NCBI GenBank assembly: GCA_022870745.1 | Contig: CP085323.1 | Span: 2,232,001-2,296,000 of the forward strand | DNA length: 64,000 bases | Origin: Silvibacterium acidisoli | GTDB taxonomy: Bacteria > Acidobacteriota > Terriglobia > Terriglobales > Acidobacteriaceae | Reading direction: 5' to 3' | In this document: piece after piece, positions 40,948-45,232 of the stretch | Position numbering within the stretch: position 1 is the first letter of the stretch | How the letters are laid out: each line of letters begins with the position of its first letter | Notes under the pieces: generated by a model | The model's input: the letters and a program-made list of their open reading frames with translations, nothing else | Databases searched by the model: none | What the model was told of the DNA's origin: nothing | Made by a program: the position numbers and the translations under genes

Positions 40948-42015
40948 TTAGTTGAAGAGCGAGCTTACGCTCGTCTCCATGTGAATGCTCTCGATGGTTG
41001 CGGCCAGAAGGCCGGACACCGAGCGCACCTTGATCTTGCTCACCTTCTGCGCTTCTTCGCGCAGAGGGATGGAATCGGTTACAACCAGTTCCTCAAGCCG
41101 GGAGTTCGCGATGCGCTCAATCGCCGGGCCCGACAGAACGGCGTGCGAAGCGCATGCGTAGACCTTGGTAGCGCCCTGCTCAAGCAAAGCGTCTACGGTC
41201 TTTACCAGCGTGCCGGCCGTGTCCACGATGTCGTCGATGATCAGGCAGGTGCAGCCCTTTACGTCGCCGATCACGTGCATCACTTCCGTCACGTTGATAT
41301 CCGTCCGGCGCTTGTCCACAATCGCCAGCGGAGCTCCCATCTTGGTCGCGAAGAAGCGCGCACGTTCCACGCCTCCCGCATCCGGCGATACCACGGTCAG
41401 CTTCGGCAGGTTCAGGTCACGGAAGTAGCTGACCATTACCGGGCTGGCGAACATGTGGTCCACCGGGATATTGAAAAAGCCCTGAATCTGGGCTGCATGC
41501 AGATCCATGAAGAGGGCACGGTTCGCACCGGCCGTCGTCAGCAGATCGGCAACCAGCTTCGACGAAATCGCTACGCGCGGACGATCCTTACGATCCTGCC
41601 GGGCATAGCCGTAGTACGGAACAACCACCGTGATGCGAGCCGCCGATGCACGCTTCAGTGCGTCGATCATCACCAGCAGCTCCACGAGGTGCTGGTCAAC
41701 CGGATAGCAGGTCGGCTGAACCACGAAAACGTCAGCGCCGCGAACGTTCTCAAGCAGCTGGAAGTAAATCTCTCCATCGGCGAAGCGCTGCATCTTGGTT
41801 TCACCAAGCGTAACGCCGATATGCTTGCAGATCTCAGAGGCCAGGGCCCGGTTTGCAGAGCCCGTAAAAATCTTGAAGTGCTTATCTTCACTGTACGAAC
41901 GGCCCTTTTTCTTCTCAGGCTTCGGCTCGTTGTGCGATTTCGATGCGCCCTGTTCTGCTGCTGCTCCTACGCCTTCGGTTACCGGCAATTCCACTACTGT
42001 CGTTTCGTTCTTCAC
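40948..42015 (-). CDS. prs: ribose-phosphate pyrophosphokinase
   Basis: A PRPP synthetase of about 355 residues. Core motifs are FKIFTGSANRALASEICKHI, FADGEIYFQLLENVRGADVF, the flexible-loop YGYARQDRKDRPRVAIS, DLHAAQIQGFF, and the PRPP-binding IIDDIVDTAGTLVKT. GTG 42015 is preferred as start because GGAGG lies five bases upstream; the longer frame begins at GTG 42054 with no ribosome binding site. Even so, about 45 Glu/Lys/Ala-rich residues precede the usual Prs N-terminus. tRNA-Gln and ispE lie upstream in the same orientation. Confidence 0.95.
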   Translation of the reverse strand: MKNETTVVELPVTEGVGAAAEQGASKSHNEPKPEKKKGRSYSEDKHFKIFTGSANRALASEICKHIGVTLGETKMQRFADGEIYFQLLENVRGADVFVVQPTCYPVDQHLVELLVMIDALKRASAARITVVVPYYGYARQDRKDRPRVAISSKLVADLLTTAGANRALFMDLHAAQIQGFFNIPVDHMFASPVMVSYFRDLNLPKLTVVSPDAGGVERARFFATKMGAPLAIVDKRRTDINVTEVMHVIGDVKGCTCLIIDDIVDTAGTLVKTVDALLEQGATKVYACASHAVLSGPAIERIANSRLEELVVTDSIPLREEAQKVSKIKVRSVSGLLAATIESIHMETSVSSLFN

Positions 42016-42117
42016 AAGATCCTCCAAGCTGGTTGGCTGTGGGTTGTCCTGCACATATTTTTCTGGCCTTCTTGCTGCCAGGGCCGACCTGCCGTACGGT
42101 TCGACGGCAATGTTTTC

Positions 42118-42191
42118 TGGCTGGGCGACTAGGATTCGAACCTAGACAAAGTGCTCCAAAGGCACTTGACCTACCGTTAGTCGATCGCCCA
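42118..42191 (-). tRNA. tRNA-Gln (anticodon UUG)
   Basis: A complete 74-nt cloverleaf on the minus strand with encoded CCA. The acceptor stem is TGGGCGA / TCGCCCA, the anticodon stem AAGTGC / GCACTT around loop CTTTGGA (anticodon TTG), and the T arm CTAGG-TTCGAAT-CCTAG. The unpaired-looking T1-G start is typical of tRNA-Gln. It is placed between ispE and prs, as in many bacteria. Its 5' half recurs twice just upstream. Confidence 0.95.
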
Positions 42192-42412
42192 GTACAACAA
42201 AACTCAATCCGCTATGACTCTCGACCCTTCGGCGCGGCCCGATTTTGGCCGCGTCGAACAGAAAGGCACTTGACCTACCGTTAGTCGATCGCCCAGTACA
42301 ACAAAACTCAATCCCGCTATGACTCTCGACCCTTCGGCGCGGCCCGATTTTGGCCGCGTCGAACAGAAAGGCACTTGACCTACCGTTAGTCGATCGCCCA
42401 GTACAACAAAAC
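42161..42412 (-). repeat. 2.4-copy tandem repeat of tRNA-Gln 5' half plus hairpin spacer
   Basis: Units 42161-42264 (104 bp) and 42265-42369 (105 bp, one extra C) are otherwise identical; a third partial unit spans 42370-42412. Each unit carries 31 nt of the tRNA 5' half followed by TTT (copies at 42161-42191, 42265-42295 and 42370-42400). Only the first continues into a full tRNA; the others break in the anticodon loop. Each 70-71 bp spacer contains a 12-bp stem with one mismatch (42228-42258 and 42333-42363) around a 7-base loop. Confidence 0.95.
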
Positions 42413-42420
42413 CTAAGAAT

Positions 42421-43431
42421 CTAACTTGCCGATTCAATCAATGAGGCCCAATATTCCTGCCGCAGGAGGGTTTTTGTCCTTAGCGAGCGGATACCGGCCT
42501 TTGCTAACCGTTGTTCGGCCAGCTCCGCTGCTTCGAGGTTCGGATAGAGGCCGAAAAGGGCCGATCCGGAACCGGAAAGCGCTGCATAGACAGCCGACTG
42601 CTCCGGAGCAAGGTCAGAACCCGTAAGAATGCGCTTGATTTCACCGAGGAGGGGACTTTGTGGGAAAACCACTTCTTCGAAGTCGTTTTCAATCCCGGTT
42701 CGGACAAGCGCGAGAAGCGGATTCCCGGCCAGGCCCCCCGCATTGCGGGAGACACCGGAGGAGTGCGGCTCGCATAATGCAGAAGCGAAGATCCGACTCA
42801 ACCTGTCTAGTCTATCCGACGCCTCCTGGGCGGTCAATGCGGAAGACGCGTGGAGCGCGTCCCAGTCGCGAAAAGCCTGTGGAGTGGAGACCCCAATCTC
42901 GGGTAGCGCGACAATACACCATGTTTGTGGCAGATCGGGCATGGGGTAGACGGCTTCGCCGCGATTCACGCCAAGAACGGATCCGCCGATAAGGAACAGT
43001 GGGACGTCCGAGCCAACCTCCGCCGCGATCTTCAGGCGCTCGCCGGCGGGAAGAAGCGGCGCGCCAAGTGTCTCCAGTTCACGCTCCAGTGCGATCAATG
43101 CGGCGGCGGCATTTGCGGAACCGGCTCCCATGCCGCCCTGAATCGGCAACCGCTTCTCTATATGAATGTGTACCTTAGCAGCGAAGTGGAGAGCGCTCAG
43201 GGCGAGGTCGACGGCTTTAAAGGCGGTGTTGCGGGCATCTGTGGGAACGCGCTCGTTGTTGGTGGTCAGGGTGATGGAAGTTGCCGCCGCCGCCGAAACC
43301 TCAACGGATACCAGGTCATGAGCGTCGAGGGTCTGGTAAAGGGTCGACAGAGCGTGGAAGCCGTCCGGGCGGGTCGGCCCGATGGCCAGGCCCAGGTTGA
43401 TTTTGGAATAGGAACGGACGGTAGTCGTCAT
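42421..43431 (-). CDS. ispE: 4-diphosphocytidyl-2-C-methyl-D-erythritol kinase
   Basis: A 336-residue GHMP kinase of the MEP isoprenoid pathway, phosphorylating CDP-methylerythritol with ATP. It starts MTTTVRSYSKINLGLAI, the IspE N-terminal pattern. The ATP-binding loop is LPIQGGMGAGSANAAAALIA (about 94-113), followed by GSDVPLFLIGGSVLG. The late AALSGSGSALFGLYP matches motif 3. Its stop at 42421 lies 8 bp from the tRNA-derived repeat array. It heads the ispE-tRNA-prs unit. Confidence 0.94.
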   Translation of the reverse strand: MTTTVRSYSKINLGLAIGPTRPDGFHALSTLYQTLDAHDLVSVEVSAAAATSITLTTNNERVPTDARNTAFKAVDLALSALHFAAKVHIHIEKRLPIQGGMGAGSANAAAALIALERELETLGAPLLPAGERLKIAAEVGSDVPLFLIGGSVLGVNRGEAVYPMPDLPQTWCIVALPEIGVSTPQAFRDWDALHASSALTAQEASDRLDRLSRIFASALCEPHSSGVSRNAGGLAGNPLLALVRTGIENDFEEVVFPQSPLLGEIKRILTGSDLAPEQSAVYAALSGSGSALFGLYPNLEAAELAEQRLAKAGIRSLRTKTLLRQEYWASLIESAS

Positions 43432-43501
43432 GCGTTTGTTATTTTAACTTTCCGTATCTGAAACAACGAGTTACAGGCAAAATCGGCTAGACTACCGCTA
43501 C

Positions 43502-45232
43502 ATGAAACAAGTTGCAGCTGTCTCGATCGCCGCAATTCTGTTCTCCTGCGCTGCTTGTGGGCAGGTCAACGCCGGTGCCATCCATGAACAGCCGGTTCGC
43601 ACCAGGCACGCCATGGTGGTGAGCATTCATCACCGGGCGACCGATGCCGGCGTCCAAATCCTTGAAGAAGGCGGGAACGCTGTTGACGCCGCAGTGGCGA
43701 CCGGCTTCGCTCTTGCCGTGGTGCATCCTGCGGCCGGAAACCTGGGGGGCGGCGGATTCATGCTGATTCATCTCCAGGAAAGCGGCAAGGATACCTTCCT
43801 CGACTACCGCGAACGTGCTCCGCAGGCTGCTACCGCGAAGATGTACCTGGACGCGAAAGGCAATCCCATTCCCGATGCCAGCATCACCGGCTACAGGGCC
43901 ATCGGTGTTCCCGGGTCGGTGGCGGGCATGGTCTATGCCGAGAAGAAGTACGGAAAGCTCGGGCTTGAAAAGGTGATGGAGCCGGCGATCCGGCTGGCCG
44001 AGGAAGGGTACGTGCTTTCGGAGGACGAAGCGGCGGCGCTGCATAATCCTCAGCTGGCAAAGTTTCCCGAGTCGCGCAGTCTCTTCCAGCGTAACGGCGA
44101 TTTCTACCGTCCGGGTGAGTTCTTCCGCCAGCCCGAGCTGGCCGAGACACTGAAGACCATCTCCACCGATCCCGACGATTTCTACCATGGACGCATCGCC
44201 AGGAAGCTGGCTGCGGATGTGCAGAAGGGCGGAGGCCTGATTACGACTGAGGATCTCGCGCGCTACTCCGTAAAAGAGCGCGAGCCGCTGACAGGCACTT
44301 ACAACGGTTACACGATCGTAAGTGCGCCGCCGCCTTCGTCCGGGGGCGTGGCACTGATCGAGATGCTGAATATCCTCGAAGGCTACAATCTCGGCCGCTG
44401 GCCGGATCGCTCGCCTGAAGAGATGCACCTGATTGTCGAGGCTTTCCGGCGCGCTTACATGGACCGGATGGATTATCTCGGCGATCCCGATTATGTGAAG
44501 GTTCCGGTCGACGAGCTTACAGACAAGAAGTACGCGGCCTCATGGCGGAAGAGCATCACTGCCGACCAGGCGAGCGCCTCGAAAGACCTGAAGCGGCCTG
44601 AAGGGTTCTTGCCTTCGCCGCCGACCATGGCGGACGTGCGGCATGAGTCGACCGAGACGACGCACTACTCGGTGATGGACGCGGACGGCAATGCGGTCTC
44701 CGTCACGACCACGCTCAACAACGGCTTCGGTTCGGGCGTGACGGCGAAGGGGCTGGGTTTCGTGCTCAACGATGAGATGGATGATTTTGCCGCCAAGCCT
44801 GGCACCGCAAACATGTTTGGACTGGTGCAGGGACCGGCAAACTCGATTGCGCCCGGAAAACGGCCGCTCTCGAGCATGACGCCGACGATCGTGCTCAAGG
44901 ATGGTCAGGTGCGCTTTGTGCTCGGTTCGCCGGGCGGGGGCCGCATCATCACGACGGTCGCCAACATCTTTCTCAGCGTCGTGGATGAAGGGCTGAATAT
45001 CCAGGAGGCGGTCGATGCGCCGCGCTTCCATCACCAATATCTGCCGGACGAGTTGGATGTCGAGCCGGGGCTCTCTGCCGCCACAATGGAGGGCCTGCGT
45101 TCGCTGGGTTACGACGTGAAGGTCGACGGGCACTGGAGCGATGGAGAATGTATCGCGGTCGATCCAAAGACGGGCGAACTCGAAGGCGGACAGGATCACC
45201 GCCATCATTTCGGGAAAGCCGCCGGCTACTGA
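43502..45232 (+). CDS. ggt: gamma-glutamyltransferase
   Basis: A 576-residue periplasmic N-terminal-nucleophile hydrolase that cleaves glutathione and transfers gamma-glutamyl groups. A signal peptide of about 27 residues is present. The large-subunit region has GGNAVDAAVATGFALAVVHP and GNLGGGGFMLIH. Autocleavage is expected before Thr386-Thr387 in ETTHYSVMDADGNAV, making that Thr the nucleophile. Downstream SSMTPTIVLKDGQVRFVLGS and GSPGGGRIITTVANI complete the active site. The gene is divergent from ispE. Confidence 0.95.
   Translation: MKQVAAVSIAAILFSCAACGQVNAGAIHEQPVRTRHAMVVSIHHRATDAGVQILEEGGNAVDAAVATGFALAVVHPAAGNLGGGGFMLIHLQESGKDTFLDYRERAPQAATAKMYLDAKGNPIPDASITGYRAIGVPGSVAGMVYAEKKYGKLGLEKVMEPAIRLAEEGYVLSEDEAAALHNPQLAKFPESRSLFQRNGDFYRPGEFFRQPELAETLKTISTDPDDFYHGRIARKLAADVQKGGGLITTEDLARYSVKEREPLTGTYNGYTIVSAPPPSSGGVALIEMLNILEGYNLGRWPDRSPEEMHLIVEAFRRAYMDRMDYLGDPDYVKVPVDELTDKKYAASWRKSITADQASASKDLKRPEGFLPSPPTMADVRHESTETTHYSVMDADGNAVSVTTTLNNGFGSGVTAKGLGFVLNDEMDDFAAKPGTANMFGLVQGPANSIAPGKRPLSSMTPTIVLKDGQVRFVLGSPGGGRIITTVANIFLSVVDEGLNIQEAVDAPRFHHQYLPDELDVEPGLSAATMEGLRSLGYDVKVDGHWSDGECIAVDPKTGELEGGQDHRHHFGKAAGY

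Follow-up and report, generated by a model that had tools for sequence, protein, structure and literature searches.

In Silvibacterium acidisoli, the gap between ispE and prs carries two tandem units in front of an intact tRNA-Gln(UUG) gene, each of which joins a copy of the first 34 nucleotides of the tRNA to a GC hairpin. The array is real, it is shared with relatives and it recurs, and its parts have known relatives. Probably, it arose through the hairpin-associated tandem duplication of a gene end and was later homogenised. The window (i.e., the whole stretch of 64,000 nucleotides that was analysed, contig CP085323.1, positions 2,232,001 to 2,296,000) contains the features listed in Table 1, numbered from its first letter.

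Table 1. The tRNA-Gln locus of the window; the window hairpin is among the 16 sequences used to build covariance model R2
Feature	Positions	Strand	Basis
Unit A, copy of tRNA-Gln positions 1-34	42367..42400	-	34/34 identical to the intact tRNA
Unit A, GC hairpin (P3), dispersed REP-like hairpin family	42334..42362	-	Covariance model R2, 44.8 bits at 42326-42369; pairs covary in relatives
Unit A, tail	42296..42331	-	GGTCGA at 42331-42326 complements TCGACT in the half; RNAalifold consensus plus folds of single units; weak covariation support
Unit B, copy of tRNA-Gln positions 1-34	42262..42295	-	34/34 identical
Unit B, GC hairpin (P3)	42229..42257	-	R2, 44.8 bits at 42221-42264
Unit B, tail (doubles as leader of the intact tRNA)	42192..42226	-	Sequence; one base shorter than in unit A
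Intact tRNA-Gln (UUG)	42118..42191	-	ARAGORN; Rfam tRNA, 59.8 bits
ispE, upstream neighbour	42421..43431	-	ORF; name taken from the earlier note
prs, downstream neighbour	40948..42054	-	ORF; name taken from the earlier note

On the minus strand, the ispE-prs gap (42421 to 42054) consists of the two units followed by the tRNA gene, and each unit proceeds from tRNA positions 1-34 through the GC hairpin to a 35-40-nt tail. Between the first unit (105 nt, 42400-42296) and the second (104 nt, 42295-42192), the only difference is a single G, present in one and absent from the other, in agreement with an earlier note on this DNA that considered the units recent or homogenised. The tandem units, strong hairpins and half copies described in that note are confirmed to within three bases (34/34 copies, units of 105 and 104 nt). 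The sharp boundary that it placed in the anticodon loop is found as well: both copies (31 nt plus TTT) part from the tRNA at position 35, the third anticodon base, where the tRNA has G and the copies have C. Judged by the sequence, a chance origin of the copies is excluded, since 34 exact bases occur twice. A cmscan of positions 41000-43600 against Rfam (E up to 10) returned the tRNA and one chance match only, with no match to RttR (RtT RNA), and the same database searched with 12 loci (E up to 5) gave no family above its gathering score except tRNA. A promoter and terminator scan is uninformative, as it yielded one promoter-like and three terminator-like sites, all on the plus strand, with the array on the minus strand.

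Comparison of the ispE-prs gap across relatives, which the earlier note had named as a check, reveals units of the same layout at the same tRNA-Gln place in 22 genomes from 13 genera of the family. Their occurrence is patchy; most are single, and twice they stand in tandem. The units were traced by a DNA search of 100 relatives, a strict pattern and a unit covariance model (R1). In 20 of the genomes (11 genera), the copy reaches position 34 and the unit is recognised by R1; the tRNA-Gln fragments of G015 and G035 stop at positions 28 and 23, respectively, and have different spacers. The strict DNA pattern matches units in 13 of the 398 family genomes (8 of 79 genera), while R1 added G392, G242 and G125, the last of which holds the second tandem Gln array, again with two units. 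The raw R1 tally (176 of 398 genomes) is not a unit count, because the matches of about 28-38 bits that were read are largely intact tRNAs or dispersed hairpins; the unit count keeps only the 20 genomes with an identified half, plus G015 and G035, with the weaker matches read in part. A 5' fragment is present in the upstream 420 nt of 19 of the 89 usable tRNA-Gln(ttg) loci (alignment scores of 23-34, versus at most 10 in the other 70), loci that were picked by similarity, so that the fraction is no estimate of prevalence. A class-wide scan of 399 genomes (E 1e-7) found five, including that of the window, all within the same family.

Mapped on a prs tree with 63 rows, of which 22 have units, presence and absence require 13 gains or losses, and one close pair disagrees, L015 having a unit and L135 none. 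A prs relative is present in 67 of the 68 fetched loci; the exception, L188, is a dispersed-hairpin locus and not a tRNA-Gln locus. In the loci that were read, about 67-97 nt separate the copy from tRNA-Gln, and the start-to-start spacing is regular (101-125 nt).

The half mirrors the tRNA beside which it lies. In 17 of 19 loci, it differs from its own tRNA at 0-3 of 34 bases, the other two loci holding shorter fragments; the number of differences is 2 in G242, and 1 and 0 in the two units of G125. In G392 (L230), both the D arm and the anticodon stem of tRNA-Gln(UUG) are unusual, and the upstream half is identical to this tRNA (34/34); G326, the sister of G392 on the prs tree, has the usual tRNA-Gln sequence. 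The half of G393 differs from its tRNA at position 16, where it bears the letter common in other genera. The 12 bases that precede the copy agree with those that precede the tRNA at 2-12 positions. Bases -1 to -12 were considered as a part of the repeat and rejected, as they vary among loci; the constant part is therefore the tRNA segment. Left-over tail sequence stands ahead of the first copy in L015 and L128 (12/12 each) and in L127 and L010 (10/12 each). The match between half and tRNA could reflect exchange-driven turnover between copy and gene or a function that requires the match; the data fit both, and the former does so without additional assumptions.

The hairpin is not specific to the tRNA, and R1 also matched places without a tRNA. 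Of 41 genomes, 25 are matched by a hairpin-only model (R2, E 0.01). G011 has 66 such places, G001 has 61 and the window genome eight (G000; two of them are the Gln units), and many other genomes have only a few (1-8). When the hairpin was sought with a strict DNA pattern, one other place in the window genome was retrieved and the Gln units themselves were missed; a covariance model is needed. Like REP elements, the R2 hairpin is a short, multicopy palindrome. No GTAG or CGTC tag was visible at the hairpin foot in 16 aligned members inspected by eye, and the hairpin is hence named only REP-like. The repeat resembles REP elements: it forms short imperfect palindromes, numerous in some genomes, and is reiterated in tandem with flanking DNA. 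Its position near some Y1 genes may correspond to the association of REP elements with RAYT genes. Unlike in REP/RAYT systems, the foot of the aligned members is devoid of the tag and the duplicated flank is a gene end, including half a tRNA.

Y1 transposase genes (PF01797) occur in all seven genomes tested (16 places), and also in five of 14 control genomes. In the 42 kb searched, seven of the 16 Y1 genes have hairpins within about 1.2 kb (E 0.0022 or better). With a cut-off of 24.8 bits, five hairpins fall into four Y1 regions, versus 0.35 expected from the densities in the five genomes concerned; this contrast stems mainly from G011, G005 and one G000 gene, and the link between hairpin and transposase mainly from G011, G005 and G175. 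In G000, G001 and G025, hairpins lie near only one of five Y1 genes; in comparison, 91.6 kb of sequence around 30 tRNA loci in these genomes gave one match. The window genome has a transposase gene of the Y1 (RAYT) type (C1:1030250-1030576) with a hairpin on either side (L395 1001-1694, G000:C1:1030050-1030743). Section 5 of PMC3733652 describes REPs reiterated in tandem along with flanking DNA, and Acidobacteria are mentioned in a cited paper in connection with related transposases. The hairpin may be mobile.

The same layout is found at a protein-coding locus. A pstB-like gene of G005 is followed by two further copies of its final 39 nt, 97% alike, each of which is joined to a REP-like hairpin of the same family. 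The order in hairpin orientation is X-hairpin-tail-X-hairpin-tail-X-gene, as in the window, and the join follows CTCTT (CCTTT in the window). We take the gene to be pstB on the basis of its sequence (last codons KRTEDYITGRFG plus stop). The copies of its 3' end are located at 657-695 and 773-811 of L300 541-811 (G005:C243), with a 72% match at 867-905. The earlier note had placed the boundary of the copies where natural tRNA halves end. Its position in the anticodon loop stands; its meaning as a tRNA half is weakened, given that the same hairpins join the pstB 3' end and that the G015 and G035 fragments end at positions 28 and 23.

In G001, L367 contains a hairpin between exact 50-nt flank repeats. 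Among 17 hairpins located in 30 loci, four have a flank repeat at p = 0, namely L241 (the Gln unit of G005), L247 (a hairpin array), L266 (the pstB case) and L256 (weak); among 34 located in 40 loci, the flank repeat is clear in one and marginal in two. Hairpins with duplicated flanks are a minority, which counts against an origin by duplication. Three units of about 125 nt in G004 (L299 329-688, G004:C17) combine the hairpin with another repeat (CAGGTCCTTCGACTCGC...GCTCAGGATGACA), a relative of which, by eye, forms part of the G015 Gln spacer.

Under the duplication that we favour, a REP-like hairpin of the dispersed family would have lain in the gap before tRNA-Gln. The stretch between the hairpin foot and tRNA position 34 may then have been duplicated, with a junction where the GCCTTT of the tRNA resembles hairpin feet (elsewhere GCCTCTC, GCTTTTC and GCCTTC), possibly through microhomology. 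The outcome would be a copy of the tRNA 5' end outside each hairpin, with the gene left intact, and such are the layout and the junction observed. Unequal exchange between copy and tRNA could alter the number of units (none, one or two) and keep rewriting the copy, so that the half would track its neighbouring tRNA and the leader would drift; this pattern is seen in the loci. A hairpin of the same kind would likewise account for the amplified pstB 3' end in G005. The half most likely has no function as a tRNA half, and a transcript of the unit would just fold into a hairpin structure of its own. The probability assigned to this origin is independent of the link to transposases, because it rests on the layout of the duplication and not on the mover.

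Arrays of gene ends are found at a second tRNA. Across all 46 tRNA places of G000, fragments occur only at Gln and Phe, true neighbouring tRNAs aside, and the same two alone stand out in G025, a single-contig genome (40 distinct tRNAs of 44 places covered). As only these two carry copies, the choice of gene is not random, which counts against the duplication. In the window genome (L060, G000:C1:1543897-1544377), three 114-nt units stand in tandem downstream of tRNA-Phe(GAA), each ending in its 3' half with CCA; the last 26 nt are exact, and a five-base change follows the anticodon stem. Units with a tRNA-Phe 3' half are present in G000, G010, G025 and G015 (among 30 Phe loci, six of which have under 300 nt downstream). 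Each contains, by eye, a complement to part of the tRNA (e.g., GGGCTGCGCTCTAC in G015), and no REP-like hairpin is visible by eye in these units; hairpin and gene-end copying are therefore separable, a further point against the duplication. Away from the main tRNA-Phe match, the 3' part of this tRNA is also partially matched in G013, G015, G022, G031 and G035. In G001, where 12 of 46 tRNAs were covered by the fragment survey, a diverged 39-nt 5' fragment of tRNA-Met lies 118 nt upstream of tRNA-Met (L286, G001:C1:2325312-2325384), with no hairpin visible by eye.

The earlier note knew of no described element of this form; the tyrT-tyrV/RttR region of E. coli is nevertheless a precedent. Next to its tRNA genes stand tandem units of about 178 nt that each include an exact tRNA end: the final 19 nt recur in four extra copies, spaced by 175-178 nt, and a complementary GGGGAAGGAT is visible by eye in the unit. 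In contrast to the window, which has a 5' half upstream of the gene, tyrTV has the 3' end downstream of or between genes, and the window gave no Rfam match to RttR (presumably RF00391). The Gln array resembles tyrTV less than the tRNA-Phe 3'-half arrays do. No 5'-half tRNA arrays upstream of a tRNA were found in a literature search of titles and abstract openings, for which subscription journals were mostly outside the scope.

An alternative to the duplication, which we regard as unlikely, is a conserved cis-acting or processed RNA, whose three-way junction would act on tRNA-Gln maturation, on the ispE transcript or on prs. RNAalifold folds 12 units into the same consensus junction, with arms P1 (half 4-13 and the tail), P2 (half 15-23 and 29-38) and P3 (the hairpin); the 12 rows were chosen from 17, the five more divergent ones being left out. 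In these units, from which the structure was itself derived, 10 of 27 pairs have changes on both sides, and covariation is 0.281 versus 0.175 after shuffling (0 of 500 as high). For 21 distinct rows, in an alignment fitted to the model, the values are 16 of 27 pairs and 0.389 versus 0.169. Moreover, L144 has a compensated change from C-G to U-A in P1, and within g1 the half is conserved while the hairpin and tail drift. The recurrent pairing of tail and half is unexpected under pure drift and counts against the duplication.

However, eight of the 10 covarying pairs in the 12-unit set belong to P3, where any maintained DNA palindrome would show covariation as well. The changes in P1 come from single lineages only, and the competing D stem of the tRNA itself is kept too (97.9% of cells of the halves). 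The statistics for the half-tail helix (P1) are suggestive but weak: shuffling gives p < 0.05 in two of 19 single units, and permuting halves among tails gives p values of 0.10 (positions 3-16), 0.019 (4-14) and 0.07 (one for each lineage); a control stretch gives 0.10. In addition, the units are patchily lost, the best fold of the G392 unit differs from the junction, L025 and L034 have other spacers, and between L125 and L127 the half (4/35 changed) drifts no slower than the rest. The modelled folds suggest that the three-way junction recurs, with a hairpin arm that covaries clearly and a tRNA-half arm that does so weakly. Also unlikely is a structured-RNA family, cis-encoded in this bacterial family, in which the junction, built from the first 34 nt of tRNA-Gln and the REP-like hairpin, must match the local tRNA and would control the maturation or supply of tRNA-Gln (or prs) via competition between copy and gene.

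It is very unlikely that the copies are remnants of integrative elements that used the anticodon loop of tRNA-Gln as an attachment site and left orphan halves behind. Partial tRNA copies are common after integration, including archaeal Gln-TTG, according to a passage of PMC9897764. The boundary in the anticodon loop, the partial copy near an intact gene, as at attR sites, and the diverged tRNA-Met fragment of G001 would all be consistent with such an event. Nevertheless, the array leaves no room for an element: judging by spacing in the loci read, no mobile element or integrase lies between fragment and tRNA, where there are only about 67-97 nt. Unlike orphan fragments of the attR type, the copies are 5' parts upstream of the gene, in tandem and hairpin-linked, and neither their regular 101-125-nt spacing nor the protein-gene case with the same hairpin fits integration.

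A decoy, in which the upstream half in the precursor would compete for the 3' acceptor strand and slow the maturation of the tRNA, is highly improbable. In the predicted fold of the window precursor, the 3' acceptor strand pairs with the outermost decoy at 0.97 and with its own partner at 0.002, equally with one unit or two; the equilibrium model ignores co-transcriptional folding and tRNA tertiary contacts. Among 17 other loci, the decoy is favoured in only six, the tRNA's own strand exceeds 0.8 in six, and neither prevails in five. A conserved decoy switch is unlikely, since the decoy wins in just 6 of these 17 loci. The proposal in the earlier note that the copies alter tRNA processing was rejected on the same ground, the acceptor-strand capture predicted for the window not being conserved in relatives.

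Finally, even though the two units differ by one base only, an assembly artefact or one-off slippage in this strain is scarcely credible; an artefact as the source of the tandem units is unlikely, because the genome is a single contig (5.36 Mb, 99.99% complete) and 21 further genomes have such a layout, one of them also with two units in tandem, while the slippage scar suggested in the earlier note is too simple for a layout that occurs in 13 genera and a half that follows its own tRNA.

The array links REP-like hairpins, the tandem copying of gene ends and tRNA-fragment arrays of the tyrTV kind, which are usually treated apart. If hairpins keep making and homogenising copies of gene ends, this would help to explain both the origin of such arrays and their match to the gene. 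The 22 Gln loci, the four Phe loci and pstB constitute natural replicates for the origin and role of tyrTV-type repeats.
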